A stretch of DNA of 32,449 bases from Phycisphaerae bacterium (lineage in GTDB: Bacteria > Planctomycetota > Phycisphaerae > Phycisphaerales > Phycisphaeraceae): the NCBI GenBank assembly GCA_030432595.1, contig JAUIGU010000042.1:1-32449 (forward strand), given 5' to 3'. A model generated the notes under the pieces. It was not told the origin of the DNA, searched no databases, and saw only the letters and a program-made list of their open reading frames with translations. Every line of letters starts with the position of its first letter. Position 1 is the first letter of the stretch. Positions 12,299 through 27,336 of the stretch are shown one piece after another. The position numbers and the translations under genes were made by a program.

Positions 12299-12334
12299 CT
12301 CCCCTCCCCCCGGGAGGGGCCGGGGGAGGGTGCT
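12299..12334 (+). repeat. Family A repeat, single copy, followed by further hairpins
   Basis: A 36-bp unit differing from the copy at 16785-16820 at one position. It begins 11 bp after the stop of the HldE-like gene, with the CCCCTCC hairpin then the GGGTGCT tail. No inverted partner is found nearby. Next come a 10-bp-stem hairpin (12335-12362, one G-U pair) and a palindrome around CCTCCGCC/GGCGGATGG (12385-12407). Together with a near-palindrome AAGTGGGG/CCCCGCTT near 12450-12467 these fill the 259-bp gap before the TPR gene. A transcription-termination role is plausible. Confidence 0.75.
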
Positions 12335-12546: not shown

Positions 12547-14379
12547 ATGCCGGGGCCACGCTCCAAACTCACGCTCGCCACCGCCGTCCGCGAAGGCATC
12601 GACGACCTCCCCGGCACCGTCGCGGTGCAGTACGTCTGCGACGCCCTCAAAAAGTGCATCGACGACCCCGGCCTGGGTTGGCCCGCCGCGGTCACCTCCG
12701 TGGTCGCCGCGGCCGGCGTGGTCAACCCCGTTTCCGTCGCGGGGCTCGTCGGCCTGGGTGTCGCCATCGGCGTCACCCGGCTGCGTAAGAACCGCAAACA
12801 AGCCCAAAAGGTCGAAGCCCAGCTCCGCGCCCAGGCCGCCGCTGACCGCTCGATGCACGACATCCTCCTGGGCCTCAAAGACCGCAGCATCACTGTCGGC
12901 CTCGACGAGCTCGCGCTGACGGACATCCAAGAAATCGTCACCCAAGCGATTAATAACCAGGCCCCCCGACTCAACGACAAACTCGAAGCCGCCTTCAACG
13001 CCGAACTCGACGAGCTCCCGCCCGGCCCCCTGCGCGACGAGTTGGACAACCTGCGCGTCCTCGCCCAAGACACCAACACCGCCGTCCACGACAACGCCGC
13101 AGGCATTGCCACCGCCAACACCGGCATCGGCGACCTCAAAGAAGAACTGGCCGAACTCAAACGCCACATCCTCGCCAATTCACCGCCGTCCCAAGAGGCA
13201 CCGGCTGCCTCCCCCTCGGGCGACGACACCCTCGATAGCGCGCTGCTCCGCCTTGCCCGGGATGCCGCACGTGGCGTGGAGACCGCCCGCAAGGCCGTCG
13301 AGGACAAGTCCCCCCGGGAAGCCGGCGACTACTTCGTCGACAAGCTCGCCAACCTCGACCGCAGCCGGGCCGCCATCGAAAAACGGATGGACCAGGACGA
13401 GATCCAGATCAGCCGCGAGGCCGCCGAACTCCTCTACCGCACCGGCCGCATCGCCGACGCCGAGCGTGCCCTCCAGCGCATCCTCGCCCTTTCCGCCGAC
13501 GACCTCGACGCCACCAATCGCCTCGGCCACATCCACCGACTCCGCGGCGACCTGCCCGCCGCCCAAAGCCAATACGAACGTGTGCTGAAACTTGCCCCCG
13601 GTGACCAAGGCTGGCGAGCCGTCGCGCTGGGCAACCTTGGCCTCATCGCCCGGACGCGGGGCGATCTGGACGGGGCCGAGTCGCTGCTCCGCAAAGGCCT
13701 CGCCATCGAACGCAAGCTCGGCCGCCTCGAAGGGCAGGCCAGCGCGCTGGGCAACCTCGGCCTCATCGCCCGGACGCGGGGCGATCTGGACGGGGCCGAG
13801 TCGCTGCTCCGCGAAGCCCTCGCCATCGAACGCAAGCTCGGCCGCCTCGAAGGGCAGGCCAGCGAACTGGGCAACCTCGGCCTCATCGCCCGGACGCGGG
13901 GCGACCTGGACGGGGCCGAGACGCTGCACCGCGAAGCCCTCGCCATCGAACACAAGCTCGGCCGCCTCGAAGGGCAGGCCAGCGAACTGGGCAACCTCGG
14001 CCTCATCGCCCGGACGCGGGGCGACCTGGACGGGGCCGAGTCGCTGCACCTCGAAGCCCTCGAAATCGACCGCAAGCTCGGCCGCCTCGAAGGGCAGGCC
14101 ATTACCCTTGTCAATCTCTCGGATGTGAAACGAGAACTGGGAGCGTTAAGCGAAAGCCAGAAGCTGGCCGAAAACGCCCTCGCGATCTTTCAACAAATCG
14201 GCCATCGCGAAGGTGCCGCAGAAGCTTTACTGTCGCTCGGGAAAAACGACGAAAAGCGTAGCCATATCGACTCTGCGCGGCAGTATTGGACGCAGAGCCG
14301 CAATCTTTTCCGCACCGTTGGGATGCAGCCCGAGGTCGAGCAAGTGCAAGCACGCCTCGACGGCCTGCCCCCACGCTGA
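12547..14379 (+). CDS. Tetratricopeptide-repeat protein with near-identical repeat units
   Basis: A 610-residue protein. Residues about 1-75 include a hydrophobic Ala/Val/Gly stretch (WPAAVTSVVAAAGVV, then VAGLVGLGVAIGV), possibly a membrane hairpin. Residues 80-250 are helical and charged and could form coiled coils. Two ordinary TPR-like units occupy about 282-358, then four 40-residue units of the kinesin-light-chain/TPR_12 type fill 359-518 (each with GNLGLIARTRGDLDGAE), followed by more diverged units to the C-terminus. TPRs bind partner proteins; no enzymatic domain is seen and the role is unknown. The gene stands alone between the HldE-like gene and the G-rich hypothetical. The high identity of the units suggests recent expansion or gene conversion. 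Confidence 0.85.
   Translation: MPGPRSKLTLATAVREGIDDLPGTVAVQYVCDALKKCIDDPGLGWPAAVTSVVAAAGVVNPVSVAGLVGLGVAIGVTRLRKNRKQAQKVEAQLRAQAAADRSMHDILLGLKDRSITVGLDELALTDIQEIVTQAINNQAPRLNDKLEAAFNAELDELPPGPLRDELDNLRVLAQDTNTAVHDNAAGIATANTGIGDLKEELAELKRHILANSPPSQEAPAASPSGDDTLDSALLRLARDAARGVETARKAVEDKSPREAGDYFVDKLANLDRSRAAIEKRMDQDEIQISREAAELLYRTGRIADAERALQRILALSADDLDATNRLGHIHRLRGDLPAAQSQYERVLKLAPGDQGWRAVALGNLGLIARTRGDLDGAESLLRKGLAIERKLGRLEGQASALGNLGLIARTRGDLDGAESLLREALAIERKLGRLEGQASELGNLGLIARTRGDLDGAETLHREALAIEHKLGRLEGQASELGNLGLIARTRGDLDGAESLHLEALEIDRKLGRLEGQAITLVNLSDVKRELGALSESQKLAENALAIFQQIGHREGAAEALLSLGKNDEKRSHIDSARQYWTQSRNLFRTVGMQPEVEQVQARLDGLPPR
13621..14100 (+). repeat. Four tandem 120-bp units inside the TPR gene
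   Basis: Units 13621-13740, 13741-13860, 13861-13980 and 13981-14100 are exactly 120 bp each. The first 60 bp of the third and fourth units are identical, and their second halves differ at about six positions. The differences sit mainly at the end of the first helix and in the second helix (RKG/REA/HLEA, IER/IEH/IDR). Synonymous sites are also conserved, which indicates young duplication or ongoing homogenisation as well as protein-level constraint. Confidence 0.95.
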
Positions 14380-16784: not shown

Positions 16785-17242
16785 CTCCCCTCCCTCCGGG
16801 AGGGGCCGGGGGAGGGTGCTGATAAACTCCCATCACTCATGGCCACCCCGCGCCCACTGCTACCCGCCAAACAGCTGGAAAACGCTCGCAGCATGCGTCG
16901 GCGTCTCACCGCACCCGAGCGATTGCTCTGGGAACGGATTCGAAACCGACAATGCGGGGGATACAAATTCCGGAAGCAGCATCCATTTGGACCGTACATC
17001 CTCGATTTCTATTGCCATGATCTGTTGCTGGCGATTGAAGTTGATGGGCGGTCACACGCTGGGCGACAATTGCACGACGCGGAACGCGAGCGGTTTTTGG
17101 TTCGCCATGGTCTCCAAGTCATCCGCATTCACAACGATCAGATCATCGAAGACGCGGACGGGGCAGCACGGGTGTTGCTGGCGAAGATTCGGGATCGAGA
17201 AGATCGAGCACCCTCCCCCAACCCCTCCCAGAGGGAGGGGCG
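16785..17242. mobile_element. Candidate mobile unit: DUF559 nuclease gene between inverted family A repeats
   Basis: The left repeat (16785-16820, tail inward) and right repeat (17207-17242, inverted, tail inward) enclose 386 bp that is almost entirely the DUF559 gene. The geometry matches the shorter pair at 444-563. No clear target-site duplication is visible at the edges. The unit lies between the epimerase stop and the start of the first transketolase subunit, inside what is otherwise one operon. That it moves is an inference from the bounded structure and the dispersed single repeats; no transposase is present. Confidence 0.55.
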
Positions 17243-17252: not shown

Positions 17253-18091
17253 CGACCGAACTCGCCAAGACCGCCGCCCGACTCCGCGCGACCGTCATCC
17301 AGATGTCGCACGAAAAACACTGCCCGCACCTGGGCTCGGCGTTGTCGTGCCTCGACATCCTTACCGCGCTCTACGGCGGTGTGCTCAGCATCGATCCGAA
17401 GAAGCCCGACGACGCCAACCGCGACCGTTTCATCCTATCCAAAGGCCACGCGGCTCCGGCGCTCTACGCGACACTGAACCACTTCCAATTCTTCGGCGAC
17501 GACGTGCTCGCCCGGTTCAACGAAGACGGCGCCGAGCTCGCCGAGCAGCCCAGCCCCGGCTGCGTGCCCGGCATGGAGGCCGCCACCGGCTCGCTCGGGC
17601 ACGGGCTGCCCATTGGTTTAGGGCTCGCGCTCGCCGCGAAGATCCAACAGCGCGGCTACCGCGTGTACGTCTGCCTCTCCGACGGCGAGTGCAACGAGGG
17701 CAGCGTCTGGGAGGCCGCCATGACCGCGCCCGCGCTCAGCGGTGCCTGGGGCAAGGGGCTGGACAACCTGTGCGCCATCGTCGACTACAACAAACTGCAA
17801 GCCACCGGCCGCAGCAACGACATCCTGCACCTGGAGAACCTCGCCGACAAATGGCGGGCGTTCGGGTGGCACACCGTCGAAGTCGATGGGCACGACCTCG
17901 ATCAACTCGTACAGACCTTCACAACATTCCGCGACGGCAACGAAAACTTCCGGGGGCCCACCGCCGTCATCGCCCACACCACCAAGGGCAAGGGCGTGTC
18001 GTTCATGGAAGACGACAACAACTGGCACTACCGCATCCCCAAGGCCGACGAAGTCGAAGCCGCACACCGTGAACTCGGAGTTTCGGTTTAA
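17249..18091 (+). CDS. Transketolase, N-terminal (ThDP-binding) subunit
   Basis: A 280-residue protein covering the PP domain of a split transketolase. Motifs: SHEKHCPHLGSALSCLD, RDRFILSKGHAAPALYA, GSLGHGLPIGLGLALAAK and the ThDP/Mg site SDGECNEGSVWEA followed by VDYNKLQ. With the next gene it forms a full transketolase, which transfers a two-carbon ketol unit between sugar phosphates. Being inside a glycan cluster, it may supply a specific ketose phosphate (such as sedoheptulose 7-phosphate) or act on an unusual acceptor. The ATG overlaps the nuclease stop by ATGA, and its upstream purine tract (GAGGGAGGGG, 17231-17240) lies within the family A repeat. The stop TAA is formed at the edge of a family B repeat. 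Confidence 0.93.
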   Translation: MTTELAKTAARLRATVIQMSHEKHCPHLGSALSCLDILTALYGGVLSIDPKKPDDANRDRFILSKGHAAPALYATLNHFQFFGDDVLARFNEDGAELAEQPSPGCVPGMEAATGSLGHGLPIGLGLALAAKIQQRGYRVYVCLSDGECNEGSVWEAAMTAPALSGAWGKGLDNLCAIVDYNKLQATGRSNDILHLENLADKWRAFGWHTVEVDGHDLDQLVQTFTTFRDGNENFRGPTAVIAHTTKGKGVSFMEDDNNWHYRIPKADEVEAAHRELGVSV

Positions 18092-18196
18092 CGCAGAGCG
18101 CGCAAAGTGGCAGAGACGCAGAGAAGACAGATGAGATTGAAATCAGGAAGAACTTATTTCCCCTCTGCCTTTCTGCTGATCCGCGACCTCTGCGTT
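18090..18196. repeat. Family B imperfect inverted repeat between the transketolase subunit genes
   Basis: The left arm begins AACGCAGAG at the stop codon and continues with CAGAGACGCAGAG. The right arm (about 18162-18196) carries CCTCTGCCTT and ACCTCTGCGTT, and pairs imperfectly with the left. The centre is AT-richer (AAATCAGGAAGAACTTATTT). It fills the gap between two genes whose products should be made in equal amounts, leaving 11 bp before the next ATG with no purine-rich ribosome site. Confidence 0.8.
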
Positions 18197-22248: not shown

Positions 22249-22349
22249 AACGCAGAGAGCGCTGAGATGCAGAGACGCAGAGAAGAACCAGAAAAGAGGC
22301 TGCGACCCAACTTGCTCCCTCTGCGTCTCCGCTACTCTGCGTCTCAGCG
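22249..22349. repeat. Family B imperfect inverted repeat before the dehydrogenase gene
   Basis: The left arm carries AACGCAGAG, CGCTGAGATGCAGAG and ACGCAGAGAAG; the right arm carries CCTCTGCGTCTCCGC and CTCTGCGTCTCAGCG, and pairs with the left. It abuts the next start codon with no space: the last right-arm base (22349) is followed by the ATG at 22350. The dehydrogenase gene therefore has no ribosome-binding site outside the repeat. Confidence 0.85.
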
Positions 22350-23432: not shown

Positions 23433-23577
23433 AAAACGCAAGAAAACCCGGAAACGCAGGAAACGCAGCAACAATAACGACGACGATCAGCTATTCCGGT
23501 TTACTGCGTTTCTTGACTTTCTTGCGTTTCCTGCGTTTGCCCTCTGCGTCTCTGCACCTCCGCGCCCTCTGCGTTAA
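23433..23577. repeat. Composite family B repeat
   Basis: Two subtypes are joined. An inner inverted repeat has arms with AAACGCAAGAAAA/GGAAACGCAGGAAACGCAG on the left and TACTGCGTTTCTTGAC/TTTCTTGCGTTTCCTGCG on the right. To its right lies a lone right arm of the other subtype (CCCTCTGCGTCTCTGC, then CCCTCTGCGTTAA), with no left arm. This looks like one element having landed in, or replaced part of, another. It fills the gap to the GMD-like gene (ATG at 23588). Confidence 0.75.
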
Positions 23578-23587
23578 AACTCTCCGG

Positions 23588-25794: not shown

Positions 25795-26550
25795 GTGAGT
25801 GACACGGCCTCGACACCCAACAAAAGCAGTGCGGCCAGTACCCACGCGGAAGCTGCGGTCCCCGGCGAGGCCGAGGTCTGGGACGGCGTGCGTGAGCTGA
25901 TCGGCGACGAGCGCATCCCGCTCGGGCACCACTGGTCGTTCAACCTGCGCAACGACCCCAAGCGCTTCCCGTTCGTGCTGTCGCGGTACAAGTTCGCGGC
26001 GAAGATGTCGGCCCCCAGCACCGGCCCGAAGCGCAGCGTGCTCGAGCTGGGGTGCAGCGAGGGGCTGGGCACGATGATCCTGGCCGAGTTCGCGTTGCGG
26101 TACCACGGGGTGGACCTCGACGCGGACGCGGTCGCCACCGCCAAGGCGAACTGGCAGACGGATACGCGGACGTTCGAAACGGCGGACTTCCTCAACACCG
26201 AATTGTCGCAGCCCGGGCCGTTCGATGGCGTCGTGTCGCTGGATGTGATCGAGCACATTGACCCCAACGCGGAGCCTCGCTACTGGGACGCGATCACCAA
26301 GCACCTCAAGCCCGATGGCGTCGCCGTGGTCGGCACGCCCAACCAGACGTCCGAGGCGTACGCGTCGCCCATGAGCAAGGCGGGTCACATCAATTTGTTC
26401 ACCGGGCAGCGCATGGTCGAGACGATGCGGAAGCACTTCCACAACGTGCTGCTGTTTGGGCTCAACGACGAGGTGGTGCACACGGGATATTCGCCGATGT
26501 GTCACTACGTCATGGGCGTCGGCATCCACCCCCGCCCCCGGAAGAAGTGA
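25795..26550 (+). CDS. Class I SAM-dependent methyltransferase, paralogue 1
   Basis: A 251-residue methyltransferase. Motifs: RYKFAAKMSA before the fold, VLELGCSEGLGTMILAEF (SAM loop, about 80-97), GVDLDADAVATAKANW, FDGVVSLDVIEHI and GVAVVGTPNQTS. The C-terminal VHTGYSPMCHYVMGVG is shared with the next gene, so the two are tandem paralogues. Between NW and DFL it has 10 residues (QTDTRTFETA), a useful comparison with the interrupted paralogue. Start GTG at 25795 with a -10-like hexamer 6 bp upstream. It probably methylates a sugar or lipid-linked glycan. Confidence 0.88.
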   Translation: MSDTASTPNKSSAASTHAEAAVPGEAEVWDGVRELIGDERIPLGHHWSFNLRNDPKRFPFVLSRYKFAAKMSAPSTGPKRSVLELGCSEGLGTMILAEFALRYHGVDLDADAVATAKANWQTDTRTFETADFLNTELSQPGPFDGVVSLDVIEHIDPNAEPRYWDAITKHLKPDGVAVVGTPNQTSEAYASPMSKAGHINLFTGQRMVETMRKHFHNVLLFGLNDEVVHTGYSPMCHYVMGVGIHPRPRKK

Positions 26551-26583: not shown

Positions 26584-27336
26584 ATGAGCGCACCGACCCC
26601 CACCGAGAAAGACTCGCGCTGGCAGCCCGTCATCGACCTGATGGCCGGCGCGAAGCCCGTCGAGCTGGGCGCGATGCACAGCTACCACGCCCGCAAGACG
26701 CCCCGCCGGCTGCTCTACACGACAAGCTATTACAAGTTCGCCGCGAAACTCATCAGCGCGAACACGCCCAAGCCGGCCCGCATTCTCGACGTCGGCTGCG
26801 GCGAAGGCATCGGCACGTACCTCGTCGCGAAAGAGTGCGGGTTTGCACGCGGTGTGGACTTTGATGCGGACCTGATCGAAACAGCAAATAAAAACTGGGG
26901 GCAAGGAAGCACCCTCCCCCGGCCCCTCCCGGTGGGAGGGGAGGAAGACGCGGACACTTCCGGGGAGCCGTGCTGCGAGTTCGCCGCCAAGGACTTCCTC
27001 GAAGAGCCCAACGCCGACTTCGACGCCGTGATCAACTTCGACGTCATCGAGCACATCCAACCGGGCAATGCCGAGCGCTTCCTCGCGGGCATGACCGCCA
27101 ACCTCAAACCCCACGGGCTGGGGATCGTCGGGACGCCCAACGTCACCAGCGCCCAGTACGCCTCGGCGGTGACCAACGCGGGGCACGTCAATCTCTACGA
27201 CGGCGACCGGCTGCACGACGAGATGTCCATCCACTTCTCGCGCGTGTTCATGTTCGGCGCTAACGACGAGCTGGTCCACACGGGCTACTTCCCCATGTGC
27301 CACTACCTCATCGCGGTGGGCGTGGGCTTGAGATAA
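26584..27336 (+). CDS. Class I SAM-dependent methyltransferase, paralogue 2, carrying a repeat-encoded insert
   Basis: A 250-residue methyltransferase paralogous to the preceding gene: YYKFAAKLIS, ILDVGCGEGIGTYLVAK, GVDFDADLIETANKNW, FDAVINFDVIEHIQPG, GIVGTPNVTSAQYAS, and the ending VHTGYFPMCHYLIAVGVG. Between NW and DFL it has 31 residues where the paralogue has 10. Twelve of the extra residues ([12 protein letters not shown]) are the exact translation of a family A repeat at 26908-26943. The insertion keeps the frame and lies in the loop after the second strand, away from the SAM motifs, so the enzyme may still fold. Start ATG at 26584. Confidence 0.85.
   Translation: MSAPTPTEKDSRWQPVIDLMAGAKPVELGAMHSYHARKTPRRLLYTTSYYKFAAKLISANTPKPARILDVGCGEGIGTYLVAKECGFARGVDFDADLIETANKNWGQGSTLPRPLPVGGEEDADTSGEPCCEFAAKDFLEEPNADFDAVINFDVIEHIQPGNAERFLAGMTANLKPHGLGIVGTPNVTSAQYASAVTNAGHVNLYDGDRLHDEMSIHFSRVFMFGANDELVHTGYFPMCHYLIAVGVGLR
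26908..26943 (-). repeat. Family A repeat inside a methyltransferase coding sequence
   Basis: A 36-bp unit in the AGCACCC-first orientation, differing from the copy at 528-563 at one base. It lies in frame with exactly 12 codons (AGC ACC CTC ...). No inverted partner follows. Together with the comparison to the neighbouring paralogue this shows that the repeat entered the gene after the duplication. Confidence 0.9.

Follow-up and report, generated by a model that had tools for sequence, protein, structure and literature searches.

How did a short palindromic repeat come to lie in frame inside an intact methyltransferase gene, and to which class of repeats does it belong? The question is raised by an open reading frame (ORF) at positions 26584-27336 (plus strand) of the window, which is the whole 32,449-nucleotide stretch of Phycisphaerae bacterium DNA analysed here. 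The ORF encodes a class I SAM-dependent methyltransferase of 250 residues and matches five Pfam methyltransferase families, each above cut-off. The best Methyltransf_25 and Methyltransf_31 stretches stop at residues 105 and 104, respectively, directly ahead of the insert. The insert is a CGG-type, BoxC/TM_ECO-like unit (26908-26943, plus strand; AGCACCCTCCCCCGGCCCCTCCCGGTGGGAGGGGAG) of a repeat family termed family A, which begins on a codon boundary of the ORF and encodes residues 109-120. The initial annotation of the window had claimed 12 complete codons from the repeat, and the in-frame 36-bp unit within the open methyltransferase ORF is confirmed. A tandem paralogue of the gene (25795-26550, plus strand; 43-45% identical) is repeat-free.

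Family A and its likeness to known palindromic repeats

The window contains four matches to the family A pattern at ≤3 mismatches, compared with 0.00 expected (100 shuffles), and two further, more diverged units (443-478 and 17207-17242) were identified by repeat search. The 443-478 unit (minus strand, TAA type) and the 528-563 unit (plus strand, CGG type, also seen by repeat search) form the left and right halves of a head-to-head pair. A single unit found by pattern match at 12299-12334 (minus strand) is intergenic by the codon-score gene call. The units at 16785-16820 (minus strand, pattern match) and 17207-17242 (plus strand, CAA type) form the left and right borders of a 386-bp stretch. 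The 4.39-Mb genome contains 61 core copies at ≤2 mismatches (31 and 30 by strand), and the reversed-pattern control gives 0. A chance or low-complexity match is ruled out by the shuffles and by this control.

Core matches are present in 5 of the 37 genomes searched: the window genome (61 copies), G001 (7 copies), G041 (5), G010 (1) and G044 (1). The count in G001, the one same-genus genome available for comparison, may be low given its fragmented assembly (260 contigs, 96% complete). The 35 relatives other than G001 have 7 core copies in total, five of them in G041, and this presence outside the genus is a point against the mobile-family reading given below. A GCA-tagged core is also found in nine stretches of named genomes (two from one Phycisphaera MAG, four Blastocatellia, one Pyrinomonadaceae, one alphaproteobacterium and one Anaerolineae). 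The GCA-tagged stretches of other genomes are all negative by a coding score that was trained on the window genome and is unsuited to lower GC.

Forty genome stretches were taken, 38 around pattern matches and two around Y1-type genes, and the 38 stretches and the window together yielded 64 units at ≤4 mismatches. Base counts were made on 61 copies, with three units of >2 mismatches excluded. The consensus of these copies is CCCTCCCC-N3-CCCCTCCC-N3-GGGAGGGG. Bases are conserved between position 2 (GCACC) and approximately positions 37-38 (GGGGAGT), and the first base and the flanks are variable, so that the 36-bp length proposed in the initial annotation stands as a convenient cut and not as a proven element length. 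On the opposite strand, the unit reads CCCCTCCC-NNN-GGGAGGGG-NNN-GGGGAGGG, usually with CCG, TTA, TTG or TCA as the second loop. All six reading frames are open in 51 of the 61 copies, compared with fractions of 0.535 for same-base shuffles and 0.343 for random 36-mers. Six open frames were rejected as a special property, as the excess over shuffles is mild and base composition accounts for much of it.

The consensus of the 61 copies contains, as a sequence build, three triplex-type blocks with short loops. A build of this kind is described for TM_ECO (formerly BoxC or PIT), an intrastrand triplex motif of the form CCCTCNCCC N3-6 GGGNGAGGG N3 GGGNGAGGG, in which a TTA second loop defines type A and a CCG second loop defines type B (Holder et al. 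2015; PMC4666352). As reported there, Escherichia coli MG1655 carries 23 copies, all intergenic, and five inverted pairs, each composed of one type A and one type B unit (PMC4666352). Family A and the TM_ECO of that description share the order of C-block, G-block and G-block, 3-nt loops, TTA-like and CCG loops, much of the rule that inverted pairs mix loop types and an uneven distribution among related genomes. They differ in the stems, which are 8 nt long in family A (CCCCTCCC/GGGAGGGG/GGGGAGGG) with a flanking GCA and 9 nt long in TM_ECO, and in location, with one quarter of the family A sites lying within open frames whereas the reported E. coli MG1655 copies are all intergenic. Among the matches listed from the open-licence literature, no report places BoxC/TM_ECO units within coding sequences. 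Because the three-block build, the loop types and the head-to-head pairing are held in common, the window unit is assigned, by sequence, to the BoxC/PIT/TM_ECO intrastrand-triplex class as a putative local variant with shorter stems.

The strict 9-nt TM_ECO pattern itself matches only once in the window and the 40 stretches (L132:1818), outside family A. It is found in 27 of 61 related genomes, with 15 copies in the window genome, 0 in G001 and 98 in G034, and other genomes of the same family lack it. The strict copies of G010 have family A-like loops and form inverted pairs at 81-87 bp.

Other classes of repeats were also compared. Rickettsial palindromic elements, to which the initial annotation likened the unit, are described in a review as 105-146 bp long and as present in 19 reading frames (PMC2229807). 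Like family A, they are mobile palindromes that occupy numerous conserved genes in frame, but the described length of the rickettsial elements sets them apart from the family A unit (~36-38 bp) and its typical pair (~115-120 bp). The likeness therefore holds for behaviour, namely in-frame inserts in many genes, and fails for membership, given the BoxC/TM_ECO-like triplex motif. GTAG/CGTC REPs are reported from several species, with some copies intragenic, many of them in repair genes and others in tRNA synthetases (PMC3733652). By that account they resemble family A as short palindromes with head-to-head dimers and some copies within ORFs. Family A differs in lacking a GTAG or CGTC tag, its consensus ending in GCACC and GGGGAGT. 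No RAYT gene of the kind linked to GTAG REPs was observed next to family A copies at the two Y1-type genes examined.

Pairing, folding and the search for a mover

The 64 family A sites include 15 pairs with units <400 bp apart, of which 14 are head-to-head. The start-to-start spacing is 81-87 bp in eight pairs and ranges from 40 to 332 bp in the others. Exactly one CGG-type (CCG-loop) unit is present in 11 pairs, none in four and two in no pair, and the partners of the CGG-type units are of TAA, TGA, CAA or other types, beyond the TTA loop alone. REPINs consist of two inverted copies of a short palindrome that together form a long hairpin. Family A is REPIN-like in its inverted orientation and in the spacing of about half of its pairs, and unlike REPINs in that 34 of the 64 units stand without a family A partner, some of these being paired with a different palindrome. 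Folded as a single strand, the 121-nt pair at 443-563 reaches -38.6 kcal/mol (z -6.3), and a second pair that was folded gives a z of -9.3. A single unit folds into a plain hairpin of -11.9 kcal/mol (z -1.5; z -1.1 for the opposite strand), barely more stable than shuffles.

The spacers of four pairs and two longer interiors gave one weak 27-nt match against the genome stretches. In the window, the inverted units of 16785-17242 enclose 386 bp, and the syntenic contig of G001 has ~25 bp between the matches that lie ~500 bp apart in the window; by this comparison, the entire stretch looks inserted.

Family A units also pair with a second palindrome, family B (GCACCCCCTCCGACCGGCTNCGCCGGCCACCTCCCCCG; L121:1905, L134:2507, L142:1880, L144:1933, L149:1883, L143:2091 and L132:1908). 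In seven of nine cases, family B, at ≤9 mismatches, is separated from family A by 72-119 bp, compared with 0.64 expected and with 0 of 5000 simulations, in which family B was placed randomly inside stretches that had been selected for containing family A. Five of the seven close couples are head-to-head. Within the genes for NuoM and UbiE, family B stands alongside family A and encodes EHPLRPAxPATSP. The proximity in seven of nine cases suggests that families A and B are exchangeable ends.

A search for a mover gave three Y1_Tnp matches in the genome, the third of which (C32:27068) is under the cut-off. No family A unit was found at ≤8 mismatches in the 7-kb stretches around the two of these three genes that were examined (C17:179290 and C32:4185), and the better Y1 match scores 57.8 bits against NCBIfam REP_Tyr_transpos, below the cut-off of 80. 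A RAYT as the proven mover is accordingly unsupported. One of the two genes, which is Y1-type transposase-like, carries at its called start (L152:2920-3020) an inverted repeat of 30 nt with GTAG at one end, likely a classical REP of another family.

The family A repeats are probably best read as a mobile palindromic family of the BoxC/PIT/TM_ECO type with 8-nt stems, recently spread, moved in trans as a folded single strand and tolerated in genes. Family A would have spread recently in the window genome (61 copies versus 7 in G001). In single-stranded form, the head-to-head pair would adopt a long hairpin structure, and the folded pair would be moved in trans, most simply by an enzyme of the Y1/HUH type. 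Gene inserts would persist only where frame and fold are preserved, helped by a GC-rich, stop-poor sequence. We infer the movement as a folded single strand, a proposal limited by the lack of a transposase beside family A at the two Y1-type genes examined and by the near-shuffle fold of the single unit.

Family A may instead have spread without a transposase, through template switching or illegitimate recombination at forks stalled by the triplex or hairpin, the unit being a by-product of its own instability. This route is rather unlikely, although several observations agree with it. Besides the absence of a transposase at the two Y1-type genes examined, target-site duplication does not exceed chance (the observed level is reached in 130 of 500 shuffles for 32 single units and in 379 of 500 for the 15 pairs), and the related TM_ECO is reported to be tied to local instability and to be unconnected with mobile elements (Holder et al., PMC4666352). 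In contrast, the conserved unit borders, the head-to-head pairing and the 81-87 bp spacing of eight of the 15 pairs resemble a defined mobile unit, and the pairing with a second palindrome family is unlike copied debris. GGAAG occurs on both sides of the methyltransferase unit (26905-26909 and 26943-26947) and was rejected as a target duplication, the family-wide test being at chance level.

A broader version of the mobile-family reading can be offered tentatively. Family A, family B and perhaps the classical TM_ECO might be interchangeable ends of one modular unit (end, ~50-nt spacer and end, arranged head-to-head) that an unrecognised enzyme would move in trans. With GC-rich ends that are mostly free of stops in all six frames, such a unit would be a protein-permissive transposon and would repeatedly have added loops of 12 to 40 residues to core enzymes in the window lineage.

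Apparent insertions in other genes

Gene calls were made by an in-house ORF caller based on codon score, with no trained gene finder, and ORFs are called as open, so that the in-frame state of the inserts is partly built in. By these calls, 16 of the 64 family A sites lie inside 13 ORFs, and with close pairs counted once, genes hold 13 of the 49 insertion loci. Twelve of the ORFs could be identified: the window methyltransferase, EboE, FabF, NuoM, NuoL, a fusion ORF with PDH-E1beta, lipoyl and FabH-like parts, BioF, ValS, UbiE, a SpoU-family RNA methyltransferase, MutY and a Cu/Zn transporter of the SO_0444 family. The thirteenth (133 residues) has no Pfam match. The fusion ORF (L122:1559-4102) combines transketolase-type E1beta, lipoyl and FabH-like parts in a single frame of 847 residues and represents either a fusion or an artefact of the caller. 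Because the intragenic fraction of 13 of 49 loci is far below the called coding fraction of the stretches (0.80), genes are avoided overall by family A insertion. No out-of-frame gene insertion was recognised among the 48 sites called intergenic by a 180-bp coding score, which is a weak test.

Several inserts lie at or near breaks in alignments of the predicted proteins. FabF aligned to solved structures has a gap at its insert (residues 343-354), and the corresponding BioF alignment is broken around residues 172-184. The UbiE profile matches in two stretches with edges at residue 137 and residues 185-186, next to an insert at 140-151, and the FabH profile likewise matches in two stretches with an edge at residue 658, next to inserts at 661-701. 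The MutY alignment stops at residue 288 and gives no information on the inserts, which lie further on (296-335). In all seven of the 13 ORFs that were compared with G001 (methyltransferase, NuoL, NuoM, ValS, FabF, MutY and transporter), the repeat is absent from G001. The exact insertion borders are clear for the methyltransferase only, the surroundings being too divergent in the other six.

The location of inserts in core genes, such as those for ValS, FabF, NuoL, NuoM and MutY, could mean that they were selected, with the peptides or the DNA or RNA structure tuning the host protein or its expression. This explanation is very unlikely: the peptides vary, all six reading frames are used among the 16 intragenic units (although nine lie in two frames), genes are avoided overall and the inserts are absent from G001 in every gene compared. 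The data indicate that repeats of the BoxC/TM_ECO class, reported as intergenic in E. coli, can insert into core genes with the frame preserved in a lineage remote from Rickettsia. FabF, ValS, MutY, NuoL, NuoM and BioF would then offer natural loop insertions in well-studied enzymes, with measurable effects, and the spread of BoxC-type repeats becomes testable through the comparison of empty and filled sites.

Pre-insertion state of the methyltransferase gene

The residues between NW and DF number 31 in the methyltransferase and 10 in its paralogue, a count from the initial annotation that was correct on recounting. The repeat had been proposed as the source of the longer loop, and it accounts for 12-13 of the 21 extra residues but not for the other eight. 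The best match in G001 is the orthologue, which is split into two contig pieces and is 87-88% identical. Its loop, NW-AQGTAETDGQALCEFAAK-DF, has 18 residues and no repeat. Compared with this orthologue, the window gene is a net 13 codons (39 bp) longer here, the difference consisting of the 36-bp unit and one additional GAA codon (26944-26946, plus strand). In G018, which belongs to the same family, the orthologue (64% identity) has a loop shorter than that of G001 and is also repeat-free. The insertion thus appears in frame and tolerated, as initially claimed, and neither of the two orthologues compared carries an unrelated 31-residue loop in place of the repeat.

Both methyltransferase paralogues are present in G001 and G018. 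Because the orthologues in these genomes are repeat-free, the most likely order by sequence is duplication, split from G001 and then insertion, which tightens the earlier date of an insertion younger than the duplication. The paralogue comparison alone gives the correct order and overstates the size of the insert. That the unit is ancestral and was lost from G001 and the other relatives is highly improbable, since G018 also lacks the repeat and family A is expanded in the window genome only, among the 37 searched, even though gain and loss are inseparable within the genus when a single same-genus genome is compared.

The insert presumably comes after the helix next to the GVDFD strand and ahead of the strand that succeeds it, in a class I loop that we take to face away from the SAM pocket. 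Because of this assumed position, the likeliest effect of the insert would be neutral, that of a tolerated loop. An AlphaFold model for the surface-loop idea, with two sequences as input, has a mean pLDDT of 33.4, too low for use. The unit and its surroundings (501 bp) had no match among plasmids.

Other repeats are present in the window. An ORF contains tandem 120-bp repeats at 13493-14212, whose overlapping 240-nt copies are 66-95% identical to the reference and which are probably TPR-like. A dispersed repeat, AACGCAGAG...GCAGAGACGCAGAG, occurs in both orientations at 18087-18123, 22249-22282 and 23542-23578.
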